From Salipiger mucosus DSM 16094 (GTDB taxonomy: Bacteria; Pseudomonadota; Alphaproteobacteria; Rhodobacterales; Rhodobacteraceae): a stretch of DNA of 64,000 nucleotides. The notes beneath the pieces were generated by a model. The model saw only the letters and a list, made by a program, of their open reading frames with translations, was not told the DNA's origin and ran no database searches. The position numbers were made by a program, and so were the translations under genes. Below, one piece after another: positions 4,093 through 43,874 of this stretch. Each line of letters begins with the position of its first letter. The first letter of the stretch is position 1. The DNA is taken from NCBI RefSeq assembly GCF_000442255.1, contig NZ_KE557274.1, positions 387,850-451,849 on the forward strand, given 5' to 3'.

Positions 4093-5175
4093 TCAGCCAT
4101 AGGTGATCCCAAAGTGCTTGAGGCGTTGAAGCGCATCGCACGCCGCTCCATGCGGGCCCGGCATAAGCGTAGCATAGCTGATATCGAACTCTCTGAGCCG
4201 GTCAGGAATTCGTACCGCGTCACGGTGGGGTAACGTCATGAGGATGGGTTTGCCAATGTGCTCAATTAAAGGTTTGATATAGTCTTTGCCGTCTGGGTTG
4301 TTCGTCAGATAGTCATCAAGAGGCAACACGGTCTTGGTAACTTCATTCACATCGTTCCACATATCCTCTGATTGATATCTCATGTTGTGCAGCGTGAAGA
4401 CCCCATTCTGCCGAGCGATATAGGTGTTCTGAAAACTCGCGGCCCTGACCACTTTAACGACGCCTAGCAGCTCGCACATTTCAAGATAGTCGAGAGGGAA
4501 GAGCCAAACGCCGATCCGCTTCTCTTCTTCTTTTGGGAGGGGGCCAATTCCTGCACAGGCAAAGAAAAGTGCTTTGAGCGGGTTCGTCGACCAGTCAAGC
4601 AAGCGGGTTGGGACGCCGTGGTGCTGGGCGATAGCTAGTTCGTGGAGAAGGTTTTCGTTTGGAAAGTTCTTCACATGGAAAAAAGGCAATGGTGGCCCAA
4701 GGAAATTCGCAACTTCTGTTGCCGCCCTGTTTTCATGCGACTGGAGCAACGCGATACTTTCCCTTGAAAGAAGTGCCGAACTATCGTTCAAACCGGACAA
4801 AAACGAGGAAAAAATGCTGGTCTCGTAGTCTATGGTCACCCCATGGATGTAGCCATTCATGAAGCCGTCGAACTGCTTTCCTGCATGTTCGCCTTGCGGA
4901 CGCCGGAAAATCGTGGGGGTGAGTGAATATCGCTCGGCATCAGTATGCCCGCGTGCCAAAAACTTCTTCCGACGTCCAACGTATTTCCCAGAGAAGGTAT
5001 CAGCTGTCGGCAACAATGCCTCCAGAAATGGGATATCGTCGTCAAAAGCGTAGTGTAGGTGTGTTGGGTGAACTTCAGGTTCATGAACACCCAAATGGAA
5101 ACTCTCATCCAGTTTCCGGTAATTTTGAAACATATCCGCCAGCCGTGCCGAGAATTCATCAACCGAAATTTTCAC
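4093..5175 (-). CDS. FRG-domain protein
   Basis: The 360-aa protein carries the FRG domain. An early FLARGHTDAERYSLTPTIFR segment gives the F/L-R-G motif, and a central LAIAQHHGVPTRLLDWSTNP matches the family signature closely. GTG 5175 is preceded by GAGGG at suitable spacing. FRG proteins are often found in prophages and defence islands and are suspected effectors, but the biochemical activity is unsettled. The gene looks more AT-rich than its neighbours, which suggests transfer. It stands alone, without an obvious partner or antitoxin. Confidence 0.85.
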   Translation of the reverse strand: MKISVDEFSARLADMFQNYRKLDESFHLGVHEPEVHPTHLHYAFDDDIPFLEALLPTADTFSGKYVGRRKKFLARGHTDAERYSLTPTIFRRPQGEHAGKQFDGFMNGYIHGVTIDYETSIFSSFLSGLNDSSALLSRESIALLQSHENRAATEVANFLGPPLPFFHVKNFPNENLLHELAIAQHHGVPTRLLDWSTNPLKALFFACAGIGPLPKEEEKRIGVWLFPLDYLEMCELLGVVKVVRAASFQNTYIARQNGVFTLHNMRYQSEDMWNDVNEVTKTVLPLDDYLTNNPDGKDYIKPLIEHIGKPILMTLPHRDAVRIPDRLREFDISYATLMPGPHGAACDALQRLKHFGITYG

Positions 5176-13809: not shown

Positions 13810-13833
13810 GAAAGGGGCATTAGCCCCTTTCTT
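13808..13833. terminator. Bidirectional terminator
   Basis: Perfect 11-bp stem AAGAAAGGGGC/GCCCCTTTCTT with the 4-base loop ATTA. The A and T ends give U-tracts on both strands. It sits exactly between the convergent genes ending at 13809 (+) and 13832 (-). Confidence 0.9.
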
Positions 13834-16800
13834 ATTTGCCACCTGGTTTCAAGGGTTTTCCTCCTGATTCTTTTCCGGCTCCATCCTTCTCATCGCTACC
13901 TCCGGATTTCGGCTCCCCCCCAGCAGGGTTACGTCCACCATTGGCAACGCCGCCAAATTGTTGGAACCTATGCTCAGCTTGGCCAACAAAGAGCCCAACG
14001 GTGCGTTTCGCTTCGTCTGCCTCGCCGAGTTGCTCACCGCCTTGGCCGAACCAGCGCGTCACGCGATCAGGAACTTCTGTGATGAGTCCGAATGCGCGGA
14101 TCGCCATCTGGTAGTGCATGTACGTCATGATCGCGAGCATCAGTAGCGCCCCGATGACGCCGACACCGGTTGACATCGTGCTGCGCGCAGCGATCTTGAA
14201 TGTCTCATCCATGAACCAGATCCCTGCTGAAAACACACTGAAGCTCAGGATCAGGCCCAGGATCGCCAGTGTGGGACGGAGGAACAGGTTGAAAACGATC
14301 ATGTAGCCCGGCCGCTGCATCTGATCGACGAATTCGGTGCCGTCCATGCGGACGTGCATAAGCGCCCAGATTGGCGCCGCGACCATTGCTTCCGCGATCA
14401 AGATAACCATGCCGAGCACGAACATCGTGAACATGATGTAGGGGACCATCGGGATGATATACGCGTGCACCACCCCCAGGATCAGAATGATCGTACCCAC
14501 CATCTGACCGATTCCGGCAATGCCCATTGCTACTTTCCCGACGACACCTCCTGAGAGCTTCGATATAATTGTACTCTTGACGCCTGACGCGAGAACCGAG
14601 CCAAATAGTGAAATGCCCAGAATGACGGCGGCGATATTGATGATCGTGAGCCCCATATCGACGATATCCGTGAGAGCGAAGTAAGGATCTGGCTCGGTGC
14701 TAAGGATAAGATTGAGCACGAAGTTGCCGAGCATGTTCCCGATTTCTCTCAGCGCATCCCCGATTGCATTGATCGTTTCGTCCGGGACCAGGAGTTTTGC
14801 GGTCGGGTTTCCTTCCACCATGTCTTCAAGGAAGCCAGGCTCGTCGATTTCATCCTGAGCGAACTCTTCCGCAATCGAGTCGGCATGATCAGCGACAGAC
14901 TGGAATGTCGTTTTCGAATATGCTTCGAACACCGGAATCAGACCAAGACGGCCCGGATCACCGTAAAAGATTTCCTGAATGGAGTCCTGTGCCGAGATCG
15001 ATTCCCAGGTCAGAAACCCACCTTCAAAACTCGCGGAGAGCTCATCGAGGTTGTAGTCGTTCTCGACCGTGCGCGCGAGAACCATGTAGAACGCACCTGA
15101 AGCTGCCCAGCCTTTCTCCTGGGCAAGGTCGATGTACGGATCCATGTCTGTCGTGTCGACGAGGTCGTACACGTTGTCACCGACTGATGCCCGCTCATCC
15201 GCAAGGATGTCTTTCCACGCTTGGTAGGCGGCGGCGACGGACGCCATGACCTGAGTGTCCTTCCCGGCAAGCGTCTTGCGTGCGTCAGCCATGGGCATCG
15301 TTCCGGGATCCGCGGACGAAGCAGCGTAGATCACTTCTGCGACGGGAGCGAGCAGCGGTAGAACCTCCGAGTCAACGCGTGCGCCGATGTTCTCCGCGGA
15401 ATTCATGATCAGGTCGTACGCGACCCGGTGGCGAGCGAGGTCGTCAGCGAGCGCTTCGTCATCGAATTCCTCTTCTTGGGTCATCGGACCAAGCTGGCGG
15501 AATGTCTTGTAGCTGTCCGGATCGACGGACAAGATCTGTTCGAGATCTTCAATCGAGAACGGGTTGACGGTCATGCTGCCGCAGGGCCCGAAATTCCAAT
15601 TCACGGCCGCCGTGCCGCCCTCGCGGATAAGGTGCTGGGTGCTTTCGCCACCGACAGGTCTACCGTTTTCACTGAGAAGTACGCCGTTGTCCGTAGAAAT
15701 GCCCACAGCGTGTTCCGGACGTTGCGTGAATGCATGGAGATACGGAAGAGTCCCGCTCGATCCATCTTCGGTTATGCCTTGAGCAAGGTCCGGAGCGCGT
15801 TCTCGGAACATCGACATCAGGTTCTCCTGCTCGCTGCCCGAGAGCCCGGAGATGTCTTGAGGCAGGGAGTCCCCGTAGATGTTGTTGTAGCTCCCGGCGG
15901 TCTTCTCGAGCGCGCCTTCGACGCCGCGCAGACACGCCTGTCTCTCGAGGATCCCGAAAACGAACTGCTGGGCGGCCGAGCTGTCAATGAACCCCTTTAG
16001 AGACGCATCGAGGTTCCTGCGCGGGACGACATTTCCGTCCTCGTCACGGTAATCTTCTCCGACATCCAGCAAGTTCGTCATGTACGCACGATCACGGAAC
16101 GAGTCAGTGTAAGCGTCCCAAACTGTATCAGCGAACGCGCTGCCCCAAAGGGCGACTTGCAGAACAAGCAGCTGCACGGCAGCGAAGCCGCCGGCCGCGG
16201 GAACAAGCAAGCCGACGCCCGCCGTGACACGCACCGGTGCCCAGACCTGGTGCCACTTCTGGCCCAGCATCTTGCCTTCATGAGCTGTCGCGATCATGCC
16301 CGAAAGAGTATGCCAGCCGAGCATTGCGCCGCCGACGGCAAGGAGGGTCGTGTTGAACACCTTCATCGCGTTGCTGAGCGGTCCGGCCCACGGCGACTGC
16401 ATGACGCCAGGTTCGACCGGACCGACTGGCGCGAGAACTTGCAGAAGCTCGTAGTACAGCGTTCCCGGCTGAGATGCGCCGTCTGTCAGAAAGTCGAGCG
16501 GGGCGTCTTGAGCAAGTGCTGCGTCCGGCACGAGGGTCACTGCCGCGGCTCCGAACAGTGCGATGAGCAATGATTGCACCGTCGACGGCTTCGCAGACGG
16601 CAGCCAGTCACCGGATTTCAGGAAGGCACCGAACGAGTCGAGCGACCGCCGGCGGATCTGGTAGTTCCAGAAGAGCTGCCGGATCATCATCGGGACCGCG
16701 AAAATATGAGCGACGAATCCGAAGAGGCCGCCGGCCGCGCTGTCTGCATTGCCGGCATAGTAGACGCCCCAGGCGGTCAGCGCGACAACGATCAACATCC

Positions 16801-17149
16801 ACACGTAGCTCAGCATCGTCGAGCTGCGCTGGATGTCCTGGACGTCGGCGTCATCGAGGCCGTAGCGAGCCATTGCAGCGCGGAACCGGGTTGCCGGGTC
16901 GTTGCTGTCGCAGTTGAGTGGTGCTTCACGCTCAGCGCGGAATGCACTTCGCAGCAGCGACACCGTCCGTGTTCCTGCCGATCCGACACCGGAAAGCCCG
17001 CGTTTCGCGCCGGAGTAGATCGAGCCGAGTCCAGTCAGATACCAGAGTTTTGACTGTTTCCATTCACGCGATCCAAGAACACCTTCCTTGACGAAGTCTT
17101 GCGCTTCCGTCTTCACGTAGCTCTTTGTGTCACTGTGTTCGCCAGCCAT
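13832..17149 (-). CDS. TraY/DotA-family type IVB conjugation protein with fused N-terminal TraX-like domain
   Basis: An inner-membrane protein of 1105 aa. The segment about 257-345 (AMKVFNTTLLAVGGAMLGWH, GKMLGQKWHQVWAPVRV, GFAAVQLLVLQVALWGSAFADTVWD) is characteristic of DotA/TraY. A large periplasmic region (350-800) and a cluster of C-terminal helices follow. Residues 190-213 look like an internal signal peptide ending ALAQDAP. This suggests that a separate membrane protein of about 185 aa (two helices, ending FGAFLKSGDWLPS), plausibly TraX-like, was joined in front of DotA. In IncI plasmids traX lies just before traY. Residues about 769-779 are encoded by the region that resembles CRISPR spacer 4. 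No other type IVB core genes (dotB, C, D, G, H, O) are in the window. Confidence 0.85.
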   Translation of the reverse strand: MAGEHSDTKSYVKTEAQDFVKEGVLGSREWKQSKLWYLTGLGSIYSGAKRGLSGVGSAGTRTVSLLRSAFRAEREAPLNCDSNDPATRFRAAMARYGLDDADVQDIQRSSTMLSYVWMLIVVALTAWGVYYAGNADSAAGGLFGFVAHIFAVPMMIRQLFWNYQIRRRSLDSFGAFLKSGDWLPSAKPSTVQSLLIALFGAAAVTLVPDAALAQDAPLDFLTDGASQPGTLYYELLQVLAPVGPVEPGVMQSPWAGPLSNAMKVFNTTLLAVGGAMLGWHTLSGMIATAHEGKMLGQKWHQVWAPVRVTAGVGLLVPAAGGFAAVQLLVLQVALWGSAFADTVWDAYTDSFRDRAYMTNLLDVGEDYRDEDGNVVPRRNLDASLKGFIDSSAAQQFVFGILERQACLRGVEGALEKTAGSYNNIYGDSLPQDISGLSGSEQENLMSMFRERAPDLAQGITEDGSSGTLPYLHAFTQRPEHAVGISTDNGVLLSENGRPVGGESTQHLIREGGTAAVNWNFGPCGSMTVNPFSIEDLEQILSVDPDSYKTFRQLGPMTQEEEFDDEALADDLARHRVAYDLIMNSAENIGARVDSEVLPLLAPVAEVIYAASSADPGTMPMADARKTLAGKDTQVMASVAAAYQAWKDILADERASVGDNVYDLVDTTDMDPYIDLAQEKGWAASGAFYMVLARTVENDYNLDELSASFEGGFLTWESISAQDSIQEIFYGDPGRLGLIPVFEAYSKTTFQSVADHADSIAEEFAQDEIDEPGFLEDMVEGNPTAKLLVPDETINAIGDALREIGNMLGNFVLNLILSTEPDPYFALTDIVDMGLTIINIAAVILGISLFGSVLASGVKSTIISKLSGGVVGKVAMGIAGIGQMVGTIILILGVVHAYIIPMVPYIMFTMFVLGMVILIAEAMVAAPIWALMHVRMDGTEFVDQMQRPGYMIVFNLFLRPTLAILGLILSFSVFSAGIWFMDETFKIAARSTMSTGVGVIGALLMLAIMTYMHYQMAIRAFGLITEVPDRVTRWFGQGGEQLGEADEAKRTVGLFVGQAEHRFQQFGGVANGGRNPAGGEPKSGGSDEKDGAGKESGGKPLKPGGK

Positions 17150-17338: not shown

Positions 17339-18355
17339 TCACGAACAGAAGCCCGCGCCGCTCCCGACGAGGGTCGCCATCACGGCACATGACACCGGCT
17401 TCGCGTTGACGAGGGCGACCCCGCCGACGATGTGCGTTGCGCCCATGCCGAGGCTCGCTTGCTTCCCTTGATCCGTCGTGTCCTTGAGGATCAGCAGTCC
17501 GCGCACGAACGCGATCAGACCGAAGGGAACGAGTGCAAGAAACGCGATCTCGAGAACCGTGTCGAAGCGCTCTTGCACTGAGATGCCATCGGAGTTCGCA
17601 ACATGCGCGTATTCACTCGCTGTCTGAGTGATGCCGGTGAAGTGCCCCGTGTCTGCGCTCGGAAGTCCGAACGACGCGCCAATGACTTCCATAACAAGGA
17701 AAATATTGACCAGCGCGATGCCGACGACGAACTTCGTGCCGATTGAACCGAAGGACTGCTGTCGGCCGGACTGCGGGTTGTTCATGTTCGCGACGCCGAT
17801 CATCGAGCTCGCGACGAGGAAGATCCCGACGAGTACGGCAATCGCCATGACGAGCGTCGACAGCGGTCCCGCCGCGTTCAGCGCGAAGTTGCCCATCATG
17901 CTGATGAAGTTGTCGGAGCCGAGTGTTCCGTCAGCGCCGCCGACGTCATCTTGGATACCGAAATCCCAGGCGCCGCCGAAGCCGACTGTCGTCAAGCCAA
18001 CCATGATCGTCGACGGAAGCGCGACGAGGAACGTCGCCGCGGCAAGCGTCAGCAAGCCGTTGCTCAGAATACCTGGTTGAGCTTGATTGTCGCCGACTTT
18101 CATCAGCGTCGTGAGCGCTCGATAGAACAAGAACAAGCCGATCACGAAACACGCGGCAAGCAAGAGTGCGATCAACTGAGCAACAGACGACTCTTGCAGC
18201 GTGCAGAACATGCCGCCGAGGGTATCGCCGGTGCATGCTCCGCCAATCCCGTCACCGCCGTCCTGGGCCGCCACGGGGAGCGCCGAGAGGATCATGACGA
18301 AGAAGCTTCCGATTGCGCTTGTCAGCACTTCGCTTGTTTTCTTGTTCTTGAACAT
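17339..18355 (-). CDS. TraQ/IcmC-like type IVB transfer membrane protein
   Basis: ATG 18355 gives MFKNKKTSEVLTSAIGSFF and a signal peptide ending PVAAQDG; the TTG start further up would hide it. The 338-aa protein has about five helices. Near the C-terminus FVRGLLILKDTTDQGKQ and MGATHIVGGVALVN match the repeated R-G-L-L-L-L-K and G-x-A-L-T-H-I-x-G-G motifs of TraQ/IcmC/DotV-type proteins, and FLFYRALTTLMKVGD is a degenerate first copy. It precedes the traY-like gene on the same strand. Family call is by motif only. Confidence 0.7.
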   Translation of the reverse strand: MFKNKKTSEVLTSAIGSFFVMILSALPVAAQDGGDGIGGACTGDTLGGMFCTLQESSVAQLIALLLAACFVIGLFLFYRALTTLMKVGDNQAQPGILSNGLLTLAAATFLVALPSTIMVGLTTVGFGGAWDFGIQDDVGGADGTLGSDNFISMMGNFALNAAGPLSTLVMAIAVLVGIFLVASSMIGVANMNNPQSGRQQSFGSIGTKFVVGIALVNIFLVMEVIGASFGLPSADTGHFTGITQTASEYAHVANSDGISVQERFDTVLEIAFLALVPFGLIAFVRGLLILKDTTDQGKQASLGMGATHIVGGVALVNAKPVSCAVMATLVGSGAGFCS

Positions 18356-18419
18356 TGGACACCAGTTCTTACTCAACAACTATGTGCGCGAGAAGCTTTT
18401 CCGAAAGTTTTCTCTATTG

Positions 18420-18468: not shown

Positions 18469-18747
18469 ATGACAGCAGACACGAACGTCAAAGAGCTCGA
18501 ACAGCTGAAAGCGAAGCACAAAGAGCTCGAGCGGAAGAAGATGGCGGCCGACGCAGAGATCACGCAGCACGAGCGTGCGCGCGCCGAGCTGGTATCCGAG
18601 ATGAAGGAGAAGTTCGGCGTCGACAACGTCGACGATCTCCGTGCGCTGTACGAGAAGCTGCTCGAAGAAGACAATGCGAAAGTTGCTGCGTTCCGCGAGC
18701 AGATCAACGGCATCTCTGAACGCCTTGCTTCGCTGGAGGCCGCATGA
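18469..18747 (+). CDS. Small coiled-coil partner of the Rad50-like ATPase
   Basis: A 92-aa protein that is coiled coil almost throughout (VKELEQLKAKHKELERKK, then DLRALYEKLLEEDNAKVAAF), with a short break at KFGVDNVDD. It has no cysteine pair. Its stop overlaps the start of the next gene (ATGA at 18744), so translation is coupled. The simplest idea is that it is the detached part of the coil arm that the rearranged ATPase lacks. Similar small coils precede SbcC-like genes in some phages as far as I recall, but this was not checked. Confidence 0.75.
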   Translation: MTADTNVKELEQLKAKHKELERKKMAADAEITQHERARAELVSEMKEKFGVDNVDDLRALYEKLLEEDNAKVAAFREQINGISERLASLEAA

Positions 18748-20624
18748 ACAAGCTTCGTCCACGCACCGGCCGGCTCCGCGGGGCACCTGCTGGTCCGGCT
18801 TCGACATCTGCTCCGGCGGCAGACGAGGCCGTTCGTGGAATCTCCGACGCGCTGTCTGAAATCGACAAAAAGCTCTCGAACGCGCGGCAAGCCGTTGCGA
18901 AATCCGACGGCCAGCGGGAAACGCTCGAGCGCCGGCTCGCGCAGCTCAACGACGACGTTGGCAAAGCAAAGGGGCGCGAGCTGCTCAAGACTGACGTCGA
19001 CGATTTTCTGCAAGATCTGCAAGCATCGTTGCACAAGAAGTCCGTCGGCAGTTACGAGCGGTTGCTGACTGCGCTCGCGTACGACGTTCTGAAGACCGAC
19101 GATGAAATTGGTCTCGATCTATACACTGAACGCGGCCTTCCCGCGCTCGATATCTTCGTGAAATCCGGCGAGCACCGCGAAAACATCATCGACGGCTGCG
19201 GTGGATCGATGACGAATGTCGTCTCGCTCGGTCTGCGCATGATCGCGACCGTGCGCTCGGGCATGCGCAAGTTCGTCGCACTCGACGAACCGGACTGCTG
19301 GATCGCACCGTCGAAGGTGCCAAATTTCTACGGCGTGATCGATGATGTCGGTGAGAAGCTCGACATGCAGTCGCTGCTCATCAGTCACCACGCGCTCGAG
19401 TTGATGCCCGAGGGTTTCGCGATCTCGAAGCTCTACAAGGACGGTGATCGCATCATCTGTCAAAACGATCCGACAGCCGATACGTGGTCAGACGAGCAAG
19501 CCGGCATCCGTCGGATCCGGATGCTGAATTTCATGAGTCACGAAGATACAGACGTCCGGCTCGCGCCTGGAGCAACTGCGATCATCGGCGACAATCACAT
19601 TGGTAAGTCATGCGTCATCAGAGCGCTGCGTGCGGTGACATACGGTGAGATCTCGGACGCGGACATTCAGCACGGATGCAAGAAAGTTGCTGTCGAGATC
19701 GAGATCGAGAACGGTCGCGTGATCCGGCTGACACGTCAGCCCGGCCGCAACCCTGTAAATGAATGGACGCTCGAAGATCTCGAAGGCAATATCTTGACGG
19801 ATGCCGACACACGGACAGAATATCGGAGCGGGGGCCGTTCCGCGCCAGACTGGGTCGGTGTCATTTCGGGCATCCAAAAATTCGAAGGTCTCGAGCACCA
19901 ACTCTCGCATCAGAAGTTCCCGGTATTCTTGCTCGGAGAGAAGCCGTCCACGCGCGCGAGCGTGCTCTCGATTGGCCGGGAGTCAGGCTACGTTCAGAAA
20001 ATGATCGAGCGGCAGCGCCAGAAAAGCCGCTCGGATGCCGATCTGATCAAGCGCGGGGAAACAGAAGTCGCACAAATTCAAGAACAACTGCAGAAACTGC
20101 ACGCGTTCACCGAGATCGCCGGGGATCTTCGTGACATTGACGGTGAGCTGAGCACATTCCGTGAAGCACACGCACGAACTGTAGACGCAGGGCGGCTTGT
20201 GCAGCGACTCGAAGCTGCGGACAGACAGATCGATGCGACGCAGCCGATCTTGGAAGTCCTCGAAGTCATCCCGGATGACGTTCCGTCGATCAGAGAGAAT
20301 ACCGAGAAGCGCGAAGAGATCTCGCGGATCGGCCGCGCATTTGCAGACATCGAGACACGCTTGAAGCGCGCGGAAGCAACGAAATCGGCGCTGCCCGATG
20401 AACTGCCCGAGCCGCCGGTGTCGTCTGATCTGTCGAGCATCGACGCACTGATCGAAAAGCTCGAAAAGACTGAAAATGCGATCTCTGCAGCACACACGTC
20501 GTCTTCGAAGATCGACGCCGATCTCCGCGTGACAGCTGAAAAGCTTGACGCGGCGCTCGCTTCTGCGGGCAACGTCTGTCCGCTTTGCAAAAACAACATC
20601 GAGCACGCACATGACATCCTCTGA
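18744..20624 (+). CDS. Rad50/SbcC-like ATPase with swapped lobes (circularly permuted or fused) and C-terminal zinc hook
   Basis: The 626-aa protein holds all Rad50/SbcC ATPase motifs in the wrong order. First a short coil (28-80). Then the C-lobe: signature GGSMTNVVSLGLRM (153-166), Walker B KFVALDEPD (176-184; D181, E182) and H-loop LLISHH (211-216). Next the N-lobe: IRRIRMLNFMSHEDT strand, Walker A GDNHIGKS (282-289) and the FLLGEKPSTRASVLSIG segment (395-411) typical of Rad50 before the coil. A coil runs 415-608 and the zinc-hook motif CPLC (612-615) lies 11 residues from the C-terminus. Normal Rad50 runs N-lobe, coil, hook, coil, C-lobe. All catalytic motifs look intact, so it is probably active in DNA-end processing with the next gene. 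Confidence 0.85.
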   Translation: MNKLRPRTGRLRGAPAGPASTSAPAADEAVRGISDALSEIDKKLSNARQAVAKSDGQRETLERRLAQLNDDVGKAKGRELLKTDVDDFLQDLQASLHKKSVGSYERLLTALAYDVLKTDDEIGLDLYTERGLPALDIFVKSGEHRENIIDGCGGSMTNVVSLGLRMIATVRSGMRKFVALDEPDCWIAPSKVPNFYGVIDDVGEKLDMQSLLISHHALELMPEGFAISKLYKDGDRIICQNDPTADTWSDEQAGIRRIRMLNFMSHEDTDVRLAPGATAIIGDNHIGKSCVIRALRAVTYGEISDADIQHGCKKVAVEIEIENGRVIRLTRQPGRNPVNEWTLEDLEGNILTDADTRTEYRSGGRSAPDWVGVISGIQKFEGLEHQLSHQKFPVFLLGEKPSTRASVLSIGRESGYVQKMIERQRQKSRSDADLIKRGETEVAQIQEQLQKLHAFTEIAGDLRDIDGELSTFREAHARTVDAGRLVQRLEAADRQIDATQPILEVLEVIPDDVPSIRENTEKREEISRIGRAFADIETRLKRAEATKSALPDELPEPPVSSDLSSIDALIEKLEKTENAISAAHTSSSKIDADLRVTAEKLDAALASAGNVCPLCKNNIEHAHDIL

Positions 20625-21651
20625 CACCGATCATTTCGATGAAAACGACGCGACGCGTGAGCTGGTCTTCGAAGACCGCGCGTCCGGATTCCTCTTCGTC
20701 GGAGATCCGCACGTCAGCACGCGACGGCCGGGCCGTCGCAAGGACGACGACTATCAGACGACGATCTTGAACAAGCTCGCGGAAGCCGTCCGGATCGCGA
20801 ACGAGCACAACTATGTTGTCGTGATCCTCGGTGATCTGCTCGACGAGCCGGTACCCGGCAGCGAAAGCTTGAAGAACCGGCTCATCCGGATTCTGAAATC
20901 GGCACGCTTCAAAGTCGTGAACTTGCTCGGCAATCATGAACGCACGCATGCGAAGCTGTCTGACGATGATACGCTGCCGCTTCTTGAAAATTCGGGTGCG
21001 TTCGATTTGATCCGAGAAAGTGGTCCCTACGGCGTGTTTGATTTCGAAGGGACCCGGATCGGTCTCGGTGGGACGCCCTACGGCGAAGACATTCCAGATG
21101 ATGTCTCGGACATGTTCCCGGGAGACTGCAAGAGCGTCGTCTGGATCACGCATCACGACCTTGCTTTCGAAGGTGCGTATCCCGGATCGCGGCCGCTGCA
21201 CGAAATCAAAGGCTGCAAGCTCGCGGTCAACGGGCACATGCATTTGATGAAGAAAATCCGGAAGGAAGGCGAGACGACATGGTTCAATCCCGGAAACATC
21301 ACGCGTCAAGCCGTTGACGCAATCGAACATACGCCGCGTGTCTGGGGCTTCGATCAGAATGGCCGGATCGAGCCGTTCGAACTCACGCATCGCAAAGACG
21401 TCTTCGATCTGACTGGTCGACTGATTTCGAGCATCACTGAAGACAGTGAAGACGAAGAACAGTCGCTCGAAAGCGTCTTCGTGCAGCTCATTCAAGTCGA
21501 AGACAGCGAAGACTTCTCGAAAACAGATGACGGCACAGTCATTCGAGAGCAGATCGAGACGATGTTCGAAGACGACAACACGGACACGAAAGTCCGGAGT
21601 CTCGTTGTCAGTCTTCTGAACGATGTCGTCGAAAGCGAGCAAGCAGCCTGA
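20611..21651 (+). CDS. SbcD/Mre11-like metallophosphoesterase nuclease
   Basis: ATG 20611 overlaps the end of the ATPase gene by 14 bases and gives 346 aa. All calcineurin-fold metal-binding motifs are present: GDPH, GDLLD, GNHE, THHD and GHMH, followed by FNPGN. The acidic C-terminal tail (TEDSEDEEQS, VEDSEDFSK) may contact the ATPase. Mre11/SbcD proteins are Mn-dependent exo/endonucleases that work with Rad50/SbcC. The upstream ORF extension to 20545 is rejected because it reads through the ATPase gene. Confidence 0.88.
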   Translation: MTSSDTDHFDENDATRELVFEDRASGFLFVGDPHVSTRRPGRRKDDDYQTTILNKLAEAVRIANEHNYVVVILGDLLDEPVPGSESLKNRLIRILKSARFKVVNLLGNHERTHAKLSDDDTLPLLENSGAFDLIRESGPYGVFDFEGTRIGLGGTPYGEDIPDDVSDMFPGDCKSVVWITHHDLAFEGAYPGSRPLHEIKGCKLAVNGHMHLMKKIRKEGETTWFNPGNITRQAVDAIEHTPRVWGFDQNGRIEPFELTHRKDVFDLTGRLISSITEDSEDEEQSLESVFVQLIQVEDSEDFSKTDDGTVIREQIETMFEDDNTDTKVRSLVVSLLNDVVESEQAA

Positions 21652-21658
21652 GCTGCTT

Positions 21659-21973
21659 TTTCTAGGCCGCCTATCCGGCGGAAATGGTAGGTCAACTGAC
21701 CTTACTCTTCTAAGCCGCCTACTCGGCGGAAAGGGATCTGCGCTCGTTGCCGTCGCCGATGTTGTACTTCTAAGCCGCCTACTCGGCGGAAAGGAGAGGA
21801 GTGGTGCGGCCCGCACCCGCTTGCGCTTCTAAGCCGCCTACTCGGCGGAAAGGATGAGCCAAGCTTCATCGAGGAAATGGTTGAACTTCTAAGCCGCCTA
21901 CTCGGCGGAAAGGGTGCGGATGATATCAGTCATGGCTTCGACCCTCTTCTAAGCCGCCTACTCGGCGGAAAGG
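21659..21973 (-). CRISPR. Small CRISPR array, I-F-like repeats, 6 repeats and 5 spacers
   Basis: Five identical 28-base repeats at 21707-21734, 21767-21794, 21826-21853, 21886-21913 and 21946-21973. A degenerate sixth at 21659-21686 differs at four or five positions. Spacers are 20, 32, 31, 32 and 32 bases, left to right. Read on the minus strand the repeat has a 5-bp stem CCGCC/GGCGG with a 5-base loop and ends in CTTAGAAG, matching the I-F layout (stem CTGCC/GGCAG, 5'-handle CTTAGAAA). Transcription is therefore leftwards, and the degenerate repeat and odd 20-base spacer are at the trailer end, as expected. No cas gene is visible in the window, so Cas proteins would have to act in trans. 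The array starts 8 bases after the nuclease gene. Confidence 0.93.
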
Positions 21974-22160
21974 TCTTCCGTTTGCCTTGCAAATCCATGT
22001 TTTCAAAGAGCGTTTGACAGCCTGCACCCTCGGAGGATCTTTTTCCAGCTGCCGAAAATGATCATACAAACAAGGGGTTTAAGGGAAGTTAACAAATTAT
22101 TGTCTTTCGATGCAAGGGGAAATTTTGCACGATTTCGGCTTCGGCGCAGCGCTCTCGTTT
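21974..22160 (-). promoter_or_regulatory. Probable CRISPR leader
   Basis: The sequence abutting the non-degenerate end of the array is AT-richer than its surroundings (22070-22110 is mostly A and T) and has no convincing coding content. With the minus-strand orientation inferred from the repeat handle, this is where the leader and crRNA promoter should be. No individual promoter box could be fixed with confidence. Confidence 0.5.
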
Positions 22161-24300: not shown

Positions 24301-25071
24301 ATGGATGTGCTGCCTGAGCTTCAGACTGATGGCGGCACCCAGTGCTTTCCCCTCTACCTCTATGACTAGCAGGACGAAGACCCCGGTGGCCTCTTCGAAG
24401 GCCAGTCCTCCGGCCTTCAGCGCCGTGACGCGATCACCGATGCCGGGCTGGCGCATTTTCAGGCGGCCTATCCGGGCGAGGAGATCACCAAGAAGGACAT
24501 CTTCTATTACGTTTACGGCTTGCTGCATTCGCTCGACTACCACGACCGCTACGGCGACAACCTGACCAAGGAACTGCCCCGCATCCCCTGCGTGAAGACC
24601 TACGCCGATTTCCGTGCCTTCTCCGATGCGGGGCGCCGCCTTGGCGATCTACATGTGAACTACGAGACGGTGGAGCCATACCCCGTCACCTACAAGCAGG
24701 GCACGGCCGCACTTTGGAATGTGGGTGATCCCAAGGCCTTTTACCGCGTCAACAAGATGAAGTTCGGCGGCAAGGCGCGCGACAAGGACAAGACTACGGT
24801 GATCTACAACGCCAACATCACCATGACCGACATCCCGCTCGAGGCCTACGACTACGTCGTCAACGGCAAGCCGGCGCTGGAATGGGTGATGGAGCGTCAG
24901 GTGGTCAAGACCGACAGGGCCAGCGGCATCGTCAACGACGCCAACGACTACGCCAATGACACCATGGGCGACCCGGCCTATCCCTTGGACCTCTTCCGCC
25001 GCGTGATCACCGTGAGCCTCGAGACAATAAAGATCGTTCGGGGACTGCCGAAGCTGGACCTGCCGGCATGA
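24301..25071 (+). pseudogene. Type ISP restriction-modification enzyme, C-terminal remnant with in-frame TAG
   Basis: The frame reads [12 protein letters not shown], a TAG at 24367-24369, then [58 protein letters not shown] and NDANDYANDTMGDPAYPLDLFRRVITVS. This is the target-recognition/C-terminal region of type ISP (single-chain helicase-methylase-nuclease) enzymes, normally about 1600 aa. The nuclease, helicase and methylase domains are missing, so only about 250 codons remain. Confidence 0.8.
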
Positions 25072-39974: not shown

Positions 39975-41387
39975 TTAACAGGCTGCTTCCGTAATGGGCA
40001 TTGGTTGGTCAAGTCCCGAGTGTCACACGTCGCCGGTTTCATACTTCCGTTCGTGGTCGGCGCGCGGCCGCCACATCATGCCATCCAGGTGAACCCCGAG
40101 CGCCTATCTGAAAAGCGTGCTCCACGGCCGAGGACGTGTCACGAGCAACCTGCCGGCGTCATCGAGGTTCGCGTCCCGGCGACGGGACCTCTAAGAACCG
40201 GCAGCCCAGTGCCGGCTCAAACCTTTTCCGATGGGCTCAGCCGGTCCGGACGACCTCCTTGCCGAAGCGGAACGTCGAGCCGTCGATCCACATGCGATGG
40301 AGAACGGTGGCCAACTTCCGCGCCACGGCGACGATTGCCCGGTTTCGCCCTCGCCGCTGTGCAACTCGCAAGCCCCACGCCTTGAGCCGCGAGAAGCTCT
40401 GCGTCCGGGTCAGCATCGCCTGCGCCGCCTCGTAGAGCATCGAGCGCACCATTCCGTCGCCGGCCTTGGTGATTCCGCCGGTGATGTCCGTCTCGCCGGA
40501 TTGGTGCTTCTTCGGGGTCAGACCGAAATGCGCTCCGACCCGTTTCGATGAGCGAAAGCGGCCAGGATCGTCCACCGCGGACATGAAGGTTAGCGCCGTC
40601 AGCGCGCCCACTCCCGGCACCGTCATCAGCCGGCGGCAGGTCGCTTCATCCCGCGCAAGATCGCGTGCGCGCTTGTCGAGCGCCGTCATCTCCGTCTGCA
40701 GCGCGTCGCGCGCGCGCAGCATCGCCGCTGACACTTGTTCGAGCATCGGATTGCCGTGCGCCAGCTCCCGCACCCGCCGGGCGAAGCGGCCCCTACTGAT
40801 CTTGCCGATCCTGAGCCCGAAGCCCCTGAGCACACCACGGAGACCGAGCTCGATGTCGAGCATCTTCTTCTGGAGCTGCTTGCGCGCCGTCAGCAAAGCG
40901 CGCACCTCTTGAGCCGAGGCGGACTTGCAGTGCACCGGTCGGAACCATCCCATCCGCAAGAGCTGCGTGATCCCGCGAGCGTCGCGCCGGTCTGTTTTGA
41001 TCGGCATCGCCGATAGTGCCGCCTTCACCTGCCGGGTCTCCATGAGAACCACCTCGACACCCGCCGCCGTCAAGCCGGCATGGAGCCACTGCGACAACGG
41101 CCCGGCTTCCATGCCGAGGAGCGTCACCGGATGGTCCAGGCGCCCCAGGAAGTACAGAAGCGCCTCCGGGTCGCTCGCTACCTTCGCCTCCCGCTGGATC
41201 TTGCCCGTGCGATCCATCACACAGACGCTCGACTCTTCCAGCGACACGTCGATGCCGACATACTGTTCCATGGCTGTCTCCCTTTGTGGCCCTTGGGGCC
41301 GCGTCTGCGGACCCCGTCACAGCTTCATACTGGGGGACAGCCACCGACCCCGCCAACCGGCGCGGCCCGCCCATTACGGCATCTGAA
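39975..41387 (-). mobile_element. IS110-family element, left copy (inverted)
   Basis: Identical in length (1413 bp) and nearly identical in sequence to 42724-44136 in the opposite orientation; I saw one base difference, in the non-coding end (TTTCATACTTCC against TTTCATGCTTCC). Subterminal repeats contain CCGTAATGGGC at both ends. The transposase start side faces the IS1182-like gene. Confidence 0.9.
40237..41271 (-). CDS. IS110-family DEDD transposase (left copy)
   Basis: A 344-aa protein: YVGIDVSLEESSVCVMD (D), LGMEAGPLSQWLHAGL (E) and MPIKTDRRDARGITQLLRMG (D/D), then Tnp20 segments LMTVPGVGALTALTFMSAV, GAHFGLTPKKHQSGETDITG (candidate catalytic S) and KAGDGMVRSMLYEAA. Intact and identical to the right copy. 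Confidence 0.93.
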   Translation of the reverse strand: MEQYVGIDVSLEESSVCVMDRTGKIQREAKVASDPEALLYFLGRLDHPVTLLGMEAGPLSQWLHAGLTAAGVEVVLMETRQVKAALSAMPIKTDRRDARGITQLLRMGWFRPVHCKSASAQEVRALLTARKQLQKKMLDIELGLRGVLRGFGLRIGKISRGRFARRVRELAHGNPMLEQVSAAMLRARDALQTEMTALDKRARDLARDEATCRRLMTVPGVGALTALTFMSAVDDPGRFRSSKRVGAHFGLTPKKHQSGETDITGGITKAGDGMVRSMLYEAAQAMLTRTQSFSRLKAWGLRVAQRRGRNRAIVAVARKLATVLHRMWIDGSTFRFGKEVVRTG

Positions 41388-41477
41388 GAAGTCGGGGTGA
41401 AAGGACGTTGTTCCGGACTGAATGGCGTCGAAGGCAGCCCGACACGGACGCGATCACCAGCCCCGCCGGTCCCGCAG

Positions 41478-42659
41478 TCAGGCTGCCAAGAGCTTTGGCA
41501 ACCGGGCGAGGTTGCAGGCGGCCATGGTCATCGTGAACTGCGCTTGGACCCGGTCGAGACCTCGGTGGAGCGTCTGAGCCATGCCGCCCACCGTCTTGGC
41601 CCAACCAAAGGGCTCCTCGATCTTCTTCCGGCACCGCTGTGACAACGCGTAGCCGGCATGCTGCGTGGTCCGCCCGTCGATGGCGGAATACCGGGCCTTC
41701 TGCGCGACATGCGGGGTCACGACCATCCGTCTGAGCGCGGCGACGAAGTCGGCGCTGTCATAGCCCTTGTCAGCTCCAAGCGTCAGGCGCCGGGTTGAAC
41801 CGGGCGAATGCCGGTTGATCATCTCGAGCGCCGCCCTGCGCTCACCGCGGCCGTCGGCATGGGTCAGGTCTGCCTGCACGACCAGGCCGTTGCGGTTCTC
41901 CATCAGCGTATGCCCCATGAAGCACAGCATGGCCGCCGCGCCCGGGGATTTCTTGTAGAGCCGCGCATCGGGATCGGTGCTTGAAGCATGCGTCGCGTTC
42001 GAGCGCTTTTCGCCCCGGAAGTTCACCTCTGCGTTCCGGGTCTGGCGGGGCGTGTCGGGCATCGGCTGGGTCTCAGTCTGTTTTAGGCCGTCGGGGTCTG
42101 CGGAGGTTGCGCCGGATGGTGGCGGTGGTGGCCCGCCGGGATCATCGTCATGCGGCGGCGGAGGGGGATCATTCGGCTGGAAGCTCTTCATGGAAGCCCA
42201 CGCCTTGATCAGGGTGCCATCGACCGAGAAGTGCTCGTCGGACAGCAACGGTGTGACCTCCGGATGCGCAAGGATCGCGGCCATCAGCTTGCGTGACATG
42301 TCGGTCGTCAGCAGACGGTCGCGGTTCTTGCTGAACACCGTTGGGACCCAGACCGGGTCGTCGATGCCAAGCCCGACGAACCAGCGGAACAGCAGGTTGT
42401 AATCCATCTGCTCCATCAACTGCCGCTCCGAGCGGATCGAGAACAGGATCTGGAGAAGGCTCGCCCGGATCAGCCGCTCCGGCGCGATGGAGGGACGGCC
42501 GAAATCCGTGTAGAGCGCGTTGAACTCGGCATCGAGGCTCGCCAGCGCGTCGTTCACGATCTGCCGGATCTTGCGGAGCGGATGACCCTCGGGAACCCGT
42601 TCCTCAAGGTCCACATAGCTGAAAAGCGTCCCGCTTGCCTCGTCCGTTCCGCGCATCAC
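41478..42659 (-). CDS. IS1182/IS5-like DDE transposase between the IS110 copies
   Basis: A 393-aa protein with an N-terminal DUF772-type domain (LRKIRQIVNDALASLDAEFNALY, RLIRASLLQILFSIRSERQLMEQ). The catalytic DDE region has HFSVDGTLIKAWAS, LTLGADKGYDSADF and CRKKIEEPFGWAKTVGGM. A proline-rich insert (residues about 165-185) has two runs of five prolines. Intact. I could not find its terminal repeats in the 90 and 64 bases left on either side, so the ends may have been removed by the IS110 insertions. Confidence 0.88.
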   Translation of the reverse strand: MMRGTDEASGTLFSYVDLEERVPEGHPLRKIRQIVNDALASLDAEFNALYTDFGRPSIAPERLIRASLLQILFSIRSERQLMEQMDYNLLFRWFVGLGIDDPVWVPTVFSKNRDRLLTTDMSRKLMAAILAHPEVTPLLSDEHFSVDGTLIKAWASMKSFQPNDPPPPPHDDDPGGPPPPPSGATSADPDGLKQTETQPMPDTPRQTRNAEVNFRGEKRSNATHASSTDPDARLYKKSPGAAAMLCFMGHTLMENRNGLVVQADLTHADGRGERRAALEMINRHSPGSTRRLTLGADKGYDSADFVAALRRMVVTPHVAQKARYSAIDGRTTQHAGYALSQRCRKKIEEPFGWAKTVGGMAQTLHRGLDRVQAQFTMTMAACNLARLPKLLAA

Positions 42660-42839
42660 ACCCGCCTCCGTCTCCGTGACAGGGGTGAATCATGTTCTCG
42701 AAACCGCGTCGAGGCCGGCCTTTTTCAGATGCCGTAATGGGCGGGCCGCGCCGGTTGGCGGGGTCGGTGGCTGTCCCCCAGTATGAAGCTGTGACGGGGT
42801 CCGCAGACGCGGCCCCAAGGGCCACAAAGGGAGACAGCC

Positions 42840-43874
42840 ATGGAACAGTATGTCGGCATCGACGTGTCGCTGGAAGAGTCGAGCGTCTGTGTGATGGATC
42901 GCACGGGCAAGATCCAGCGGGAGGCGAAGGTAGCGAGCGACCCGGAGGCGCTTCTGTACTTCCTGGGGCGCCTGGACCATCCGGTGACGCTCCTCGGCAT
43001 GGAAGCCGGGCCGTTGTCGCAGTGGCTCCATGCCGGCTTGACGGCGGCGGGTGTCGAGGTGGTTCTCATGGAGACCCGGCAGGTGAAGGCGGCACTATCG
43101 GCGATGCCGATCAAAACAGACCGGCGCGACGCTCGCGGGATCACGCAGCTCTTGCGGATGGGATGGTTCCGACCGGTGCACTGCAAGTCCGCCTCGGCTC
43201 AAGAGGTGCGCGCTTTGCTGACGGCGCGCAAGCAGCTCCAGAAGAAGATGCTCGACATCGAGCTCGGTCTCCGTGGTGTGCTCAGGGGCTTCGGGCTCAG
43301 GATCGGCAAGATCAGTAGGGGCCGCTTCGCCCGGCGGGTGCGGGAGCTGGCGCACGGCAATCCGATGCTCGAACAAGTGTCAGCGGCGATGCTGCGCGCG
43401 CGCGACGCGCTGCAGACGGAGATGACGGCGCTCGACAAGCGCGCACGCGATCTTGCGCGGGATGAAGCGACCTGCCGCCGGCTGATGACGGTGCCGGGAG
43501 TGGGCGCGCTGACGGCGCTAACCTTCATGTCCGCGGTGGACGATCCTGGCCGCTTTCGCTCATCGAAACGGGTCGGAGCGCATTTCGGTCTGACCCCGAA
43601 GAAGCACCAATCCGGCGAGACGGACATCACCGGCGGAATCACCAAGGCCGGCGACGGAATGGTGCGCTCGATGCTCTACGAGGCGGCGCAGGCGATGCTG
43701 ACCCGGACGCAGAGCTTCTCGCGGCTCAAGGCGTGGGGCTTGCGAGTTGCACAGCGGCGAGGGCGAAACCGGGCAATCGTCGCCGTGGCGCGGAAGTTGG
43801 CCACCGTTCTCCATCGCATGTGGATCGACGGCTCGACGTTCCGCTTCGGCAAGGAGGTCGTCCGGACCGGCTGA
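42840..43874 (+). CDS. IS110-family DEDD transposase (right copy)
   Basis: Same 344-residue protein as the left copy, including GIDVS, MEAGP, KTDRRDAR and the HQSGETDITG region. The ATG follows AAAGGGAGACAGCC. Both copies being intact and identical implies recent duplication. Confidence 0.93.
   Translation: MEQYVGIDVSLEESSVCVMDRTGKIQREAKVASDPEALLYFLGRLDHPVTLLGMEAGPLSQWLHAGLTAAGVEVVLMETRQVKAALSAMPIKTDRRDARGITQLLRMGWFRPVHCKSASAQEVRALLTARKQLQKKMLDIELGLRGVLRGFGLRIGKISRGRFARRVRELAHGNPMLEQVSAAMLRARDALQTEMTALDKRARDLARDEATCRRLMTVPGVGALTALTFMSAVDDPGRFRSSKRVGAHFGLTPKKHQSGETDITGGITKAGDGMVRSMLYEAAQAMLTRTQSFSRLKAWGLRVAQRRGRNRAIVAVARKLATVLHRMWIDGSTFRFGKEVVRTG

Follow-up and report, generated by a model that had tools for sequence, protein, structure and literature searches.

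A short CRISPR array lies within a type IVB-like transfer module of Salipiger mucosus DSM 16094, which raises the question of where its spacers came from and what the array can be used for. We examined it in a window of 64,000 nucleotides (contig NZ_KE557274.1, positions 387850-451849), to which the coordinates below refer. We consider it quite probable that this is an orphan type I-F array whose spacers were acquired by I-F Cas proteins, with traY and a plasmid element as targets, that the resident traY is spared and that the array is silent in this genome.

The array and its neighbourhood

The array spans positions 21659-21973 and consists of five perfect 28-nt repeats (21707-21973) and one degenerate repeat (21659-21686), which is identical to the perfect ones at 23/28 positions. 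Its period is 60 nt, once 59, and there are four full spacers of 31-32 nt. Read on the minus strand from the presumed leader or promoter side (21974-22057, placed by the orientation of the array), its parts are the repeat adjoining the presumed leader (21946-21973), the leader-proximal spacer 5 (21914-21945), a repeat (21886-21913), spacer 4 (21854-21885), a repeat (21826-21853), spacer 3 (21795-21825, 31 nt), a repeat (21767-21794), spacer 2 (21735-21766), a repeat (21707-21734), a short spacer of 20 nt (21687-21706) and the degenerate, I-F-like terminal repeat. A sigma-70-like site was sought on the presumed leader side and was not found. The short spacer, AGTAAGGTCAGTTGACCTAC, is a near-perfect palindrome beside the degenerate repeat, perhaps an operator or a spacer that has been truncated.

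The Rfam model CRISPR-DR4, which we take to be the I-F repeat family, aligns with part of all six repeats on the minus strand; its scores of 22.3-22.7 bits (E about 0.02) are below the gathering score of 35. The minus strand is therefore taken as the crRNA strand. The array also has the format of type I-F, with a 28-nt repeat that folds into a 5-bp stem and a 5-nt loop (folded for 21886-21913) and spacers of about 32 nt. The I-F call is supported by a csy3-bearing relative (G289): the contig with csy3 also holds an array whose period is likewise 60 nt and whose repeat agrees with the present one at 22/28 positions. Allowing up to 3 mismatches, we found no further copy of the repeat elsewhere in this genome and none in 393 other genomes of the family.

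The array directly follows a gene for an SbcD/Mre11-like phosphoesterase (20545-21651, plus strand; PF00149, 3.8e-10), whose stop codon lies 7 bp before it. The neighbouring genes encode an SbcC/Rad50-like ATPase (18744-20624, plus strand; AAA_23, 6.9e-15; phrog_16465, 1.5e-19), a TraQ-like protein (17339-18379, minus strand), of which residues 158-337 match NF033883 at 3e-8, below the cut-off, and a DotA/TraY-family protein of 1105 aa (13832-17149, minus strand; TIGR04346, 1.6e-88, 298 bits against a cut-off of 100). There is a second weak TraQ-like place on the contig, at 101094. TraY and the SbcC/SbcD-like pair are also linked on R. leguminosarum pRlX5 and are both present on the M. extorquens AM1 megaplasmid (NC_012811), the SbcD/Mre11-like protein being about 42% identical to its homologues in these two; a search for its relatives in viral contigs gave none that was confirmed. 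The contig of the window carries a called tmRNA and two tRNAs and thus looks chromosomal.

Several other features of the surroundings were observed. The ATPase of the SbcC/SbcD-like pair matches Lamassu LmuB models (2.6e-12), and a 92-aa ORF before it has a weak match to LmuA (0.0097); judged from these matches, positions 18469-21651 are a possible defence-like unit, which also stands beside traY on pRlX5. On the M. extorquens AM1 megaplasmid, two repeats around one 32-nt spacer, presumably I-E-like, lie about 90 bp upstream of traY (L027:14822-14908), and this spacer is without a clear target (best foreign E 0.06 among the best 10 of 129). Elsewhere in the window there are an FRG-domain protein matching the PADLOC candidate PDC-S15 (4093-5175, 1.8e-24), a fragment (24520-25071), following a transposase-like gene, from the C-terminus of a type ISP / IIG restriction-modification enzyme, and an inverted pair of ORFs of 344 aa each with identical starts (MEQYVGIDVSLEESS...) and another ORF between them (40237-43874), which look like IS copies.

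Spacer 4 and the resident traY/dotA gene

The earlier note on this DNA held that spacer 4 resembles the module's own traY/dotA gene beside a CC flank, and this was confirmed: spacer 4 matches positions 14813-14844 at 24/32, and the second-best site in the window reaches 20/32. The matched site is on the plus strand, the antisense strand of the gene, so that crRNA 4 is antisense to the traY message. The 5' flank of the site is TCC, with CC at 14811-14812. The type I-F PAM is CC on the 5' side of the protospacer, and mismatches in the seed count against targeting. The peptide likeness and the mainly wobble-position mismatches described in the earlier note were also borne out. Spacer 4 translates as EPSFIEEMVE and the resident gene as EPGFLEDMVE (changes S/G, I/L and E/D), and the 8 mismatches fall at codon positions 1, 2 and 3 in the numbers 2, 0 and 6 (hypergeometric p 0.0099). 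One of them is at crRNA position 4, the seed mismatch which had been pointed out before.

We compared the match with several null distributions. In the shuffled-spacer control which the earlier note had proposed, mononucleotide shuffles reached at least 24 matches in 108/627,984 cases and did so with CC in only 6/627,984; smaller runs gave 0/1,500 for mononucleotide and 0/1,500 for dinucleotide shuffles. A set of 200,000 real 32-mers was drawn from the rest of the contig. Among these, 746 with 29-32 matches were set aside as presumed paralogues, and 1,614 others had a best match of 24-28, 144 of them with CC; with the presumed paralogues included, the counts are 2,360 and 200. Among 3,000 32-mers from related megaplasmid loci, with true homologues kept in, 27 reached this level, 3 of them with CC. 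A separate draw of 500,000 real 32-mers gave 4,356 sites at 24-28 matches, of which 380 had CC, 102 had the codon pattern (a called gene in which third codon positions hold 75% or more of the mismatches) and 5 had both. It should be noted that the codon-pattern criterion is post hoc, having been set after the match was seen, and that the gene calls are a greedy choice of ORFs. Over four spacers, the chance of such a match in real sequence is about 3% without the PAM, 0.3% with CC and about 0.004% with CC and the post hoc codon pattern.

Near-perfect matches to traY/dotA or other type IVB genes with CC, which the earlier note had hoped to obtain by database alignment, were not found. None of the spacers had an exact or near-exact protospacer in the collections searched for it, and only diverged matches were seen. 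The best BLAST E values of spacer 4 were 0.7 in plasmids (among the best 20 of 42 records) and 0.9 in phages (among the 20 records listed); trbE was rejected as its source, with just 21/32. Exact 20-mers of spacers 4 and 5 had no match in viral contigs. The TraY protein itself had no plasmid match covering at least 80% of its length, and the three best-ranked matches were 31.6-31.8% identical. TraY relatives were matched in 13/293 and 6/394 genomes, this one included, the others being at most 34% identical over local stretches; none was found in 19 other genomes of the same genus and none was confirmed in viral contigs. The segment corresponding to spacer 4 was not seen in any of the 23 other aligned rows of TraY homologues, some of which are pieces of one gene. 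A search with the degenerate codons of the segment gave eight stretches, 7 from genome contigs and 1 from viral contigs. All were rejected as TraY, with no homology beyond the pattern (best E 0.025 over 30 aa, L039). A coding site of Legionella wadsworthii (52-aa frame), itself selected by the pattern, matches spacer 4 at 25/32 and is without a CC PAM.

Two alternatives bear on this match. If it were due to chance, the true source would be an unsampled phage or plasmid gene, and we regard this as distinctly improbable. Real sequence does reach 24-28 matches in 0.8% of queries (0.07% with CC), a close donor was not found and a pattern-selected site elsewhere gives 25/32. However, the PAM side, the reading frame, the third-position bias and the location in the same module agree, a combination met jointly at 5 sites in 500,000 queries, and four other candidates that were inspected among the 42 BLAST records match at 12-22/32 over the full length. 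Less probable still, in our view, is that crRNA 4 acts on the resident traY, as a CRISPR-derived regulator or self-targeting guide which dampens conjugation. The site in the same module, the 24/32 match, the CC PAM and a crRNA antisense to the traY message would fit such a role, but the seed mismatch at position 4 and the 8 scattered mismatches are against it, the mismatches are patterned like gene divergence and the genome gave no match to Cas1, Csy3 or Csy4. The differences are mainly synonymous or conservative, and a decaying array copy has no reading frame to keep, so the divergence is best placed between two genes. The most likely donor of spacer 4 is thus a traY/dotA gene that is homologous to the resident one and has diverged from it.

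Spacer 3 and a structured plasmid element

Spacer 3 (21795-21825) has its best plasmid matches in Paracoccus albus p2 (27/31, E 4e-3) and P. sediminicola p1 (26/31), at sites with no listed gene which lie near mob, ParA-like and ArdC-like (zincin peptidase) genes. An unannotated site on a Rhodococcus plasmid equals the best of these, with 27/31 (E 0.01). When a 161-bp piece around the match was searched, 61 plasmid records were found at E ≤ 0.01, with up to 5 places per record; 32 of the records cover at least 80% of the piece and 35 are from Paracoccus or Phaeobacter.

These places share a structured element with a variable outer stem, a covarying inner hairpin and invariant caps, which is present in 1-6 copies per plasmid or genome and has the consensus CCGTGTCCTC, a small hairpin and TGCGGGCCGCACCA. 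The 51 pattern matches represent 47 distinct contexts and 25 distinct hairpins. The first three positions of the hairpin are paired in 23 of the 25, compared with a shuffled mean of 8.35 and a maximum of 16 in 2,000 shuffles, and in 10 distinct rows all three pairs are changed on both sides. For the outer stem, the native partner was within the best 10% by RNA energies in 16 of the 27 copies kept of 54 after dereplication. Of four copies folded singly, one was clearly more stable than its shuffles (z -4.6) and the other three were not. Within the range of spacer 3 there are 15 alignment-invariant columns, and spacer 3 matches all of them. A covariance model of the element scored spacer 3 at only E 0.68 (rank 5/28), because the conserved 5' part of the element lies outside the spacer.

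The same model found the element in 17/195 relatives, including 6/19 other genomes of the same genus, with 1-6 matches each, and did not find it in the present genome. Examples in related genomes are L084:3940-4060, L091:20007-20127, L092:19935-20050 and L097-L126. Of 17 annotated copies, a count which leaves out the Rhodococcus site and one loose L091 match without the conserved 5' part, 13 lie 105-306 bp upstream of a CDS on the same strand (limit 350 bp), and some of the genes downstream of element copies are ArdC-like or ParB-like. In the viral collection, the loose element pattern was seen in 23 stretches, 18 of which have the full GGxCCGTGTCCTC form; an exact 20-mer of spacer 3 gave one match in viral contigs, at 24/31.

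At the PAM position, the 47 distinct copies have CG (27), CT (16), GC (3) and TC (1), and none has CC. From the pairing rule of the hairpin, CC would be predicted immediately 5' of the donor site of spacer 3. No spacer-3-like site with CC and up to 3 mismatches was found in 393 other genomes of the family. On these sequence comparisons, the most likely source of spacer 3 is a noncoding, structured element carried by Rhodobacterales plasmids.

No Rfam family reached its gathering score for the element, with matches at chance level only; radC RNA was rejected as its identity, with 12.7 bits against a gathering score of 40. The element resembles the Frpo/ssi single-stranded promoters of plasmid leading regions, as far as the account in PMC11541004 describes them, and the STAXI motif as described in PMC2864571, in being structured, repeated and beside early, antirestriction or ssDNA-binding genes. 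The likeness to Frpo/ssi is one of description. The element is possibly a single-stranded promoter or a priming site. No description of it was found among the matches listed in a literature search.

The other two full spacers gave less. Spacer 2 (21735-21766) has a weak in-frame resemblance to a Roseobacter plasmid rfbB (26/32; best E 0.06 among the best 12 of 205 records) which is probably due to chance, and rfbB was rejected as its source, with mismatches that are not at wobble positions and CC at 1 of 3 inspected sites. Against phages its best E was 3 (best 12 of 177), and an exact 20-mer gave one match in viral contigs, at 24/32. The source of spacer 5 (21914-21945) was not found among plasmids (best E 0.7, best 12 of 38 records) or phages (best E 0.9, best 12 of 30 records).

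Use of the array and comparison with known systems

We searched the genome, which is 97.5% complete, for Cas1, Csy3 and Csy4 and found 0 matches to each, while the controls gave matches. Csy3 was found in 1/311 relatives, and its carrier (G289) is a genome of another family. The array is therefore probably silent in its present host, unless Cas proteins come from elsewhere.

According to the reading which we prefer, I-F Cas proteins would have acquired the spacers at another place or an earlier time, and at least some of them from conjugative elements entering the cell. Spacer 4 would stem from the traY/dotA of a module related to the resident one but diverged from it, and the most likely origin of spacer 3 would be a structured noncoding element near early plasmid genes. 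Were I-F Cas proteins supplied in trans, the crRNAs would guide Cascade to elements of these kinds at sites flanked by CC PAMs, and crRNA 4 would bind a donor-like traY beside CC; the resident traY would probably be spared by its 8 mismatches, one of them in the seed. Without Cas proteins, the effect of the array would stop at transcription. The array had been proposed to be aimed at the transfer genes of competing relatives. This stands for spacer 4, which points to traY/dotA, but not for the array as stated, as a transfer gene is indicated by only one of the four full spacers, and a plasmid noncoding element by spacer 3. With spacer 4 probably from a diverged traY and spacer 3 most likely from a plasmid element, what the array seems to record is conflict between transferable DNA elements.

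An inert relic, in which the I-F cas genes have been lost and the spacers merely record past encounters, shares this origin and differs on use, and we see the chances of it as evenly balanced. The missing matches to Cas1, Csy3 and Csy4, the presence of Csy3 in just one of the relatives, the degenerate terminal repeat and the promoter search without a sigma-70-like site all fit a relic. However, five identical repeats and spacers of 31-32 nt are no sign of decay, and orphan arrays are described as common on plasmids, where they may use Cas proteins in trans (PMC9071438). It is scarcely credible that the array is part of a Tn7-like CRISPR-associated transposon (I-F3); the I-F-like repeats, the degenerate terminal repeat and the odd short spacer would suit one, but the genome has no match to Csy3 or Csy4. 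A bolder version of the reading preferred above is also unlikely. It would have the Cas-less I-F array of a conjugative island strike at plasmid entry in two places, the folded element, which would control the genes expressed on arrival, and the TraY channel of elements of its own kind. The divergence of its own traY would be the mark of self and non-self; the array would work only in recipients which supply I-F Cas proteins, and spacer 3 would reveal a widespread, undescribed control element of the ssDNA type on alphaproteobacterial plasmids.

Arrays with anti-plasmid spacers are already known from mobile elements (PMC8743540, PMC9071438). The nearest case on an integrative element is CampyICE1 of Campylobacter, an integrative conjugative element which is described as having short arrays, an incomplete system and spacers most of which are predicted to be anti-plasmid (PMC8743540). 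The present array is likewise short, part of an incomplete system and, in part, probably plasmid-directed. CampyICE1 is, however, reported to be a type II-C system that has many spacers and a Cas9 of its own (PMC8743540), whereas the present array is of type I-F, with Cas1, Csy3 and Csy4 not found and four full spacers, one of which is like its own transfer gene. A survey of plasmids is reported to have found 207 orphan arrays and 66% of matched plasmid-borne spacers targeting plasmids, and to suggest the use of Cas proteins in trans (PMC9071438). In contrast to the arrays of that account, the present one is part of a type IVB-like module on a contig that looks chromosomal, and its matches are diverged homologues and not near-exact protospacers. 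Viral mini-arrays are described as small, element-borne arrays which use host Cas proteins against related viruses (PMC11656645); here the carrier is a transfer module and not a virus, and host Cas1, Csy3 and Csy4 were not found. The same account describes type IV-A spacers as enriched for conjugative plasmids, transfer genes included (PMC11656645), but the present repeat is I-F-like and there was no effector gene among those searched (Csy3 and Csy4). Among the matches listed in a literature search there was none on an orphan array of type I-F within a type IVB module.

The known mobile elements which record their rivals are thus joined by a type IVB-like transfer module that carries an orphan I-F array. 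It also indicates that the codon pattern of mismatches can trace a diverged spacer where the exact protospacer is not known. The structured noncoding element is a more open, and perhaps a newer, lead than the array itself. It is present on many Rhodobacterales plasmids, is often multicopy and has antirestriction (ArdC-like), partition and other genes for neighbours. Should it turn out to be a single-stranded promoter, the expression of early plasmid genes in Rhodobacterales would become directly testable.
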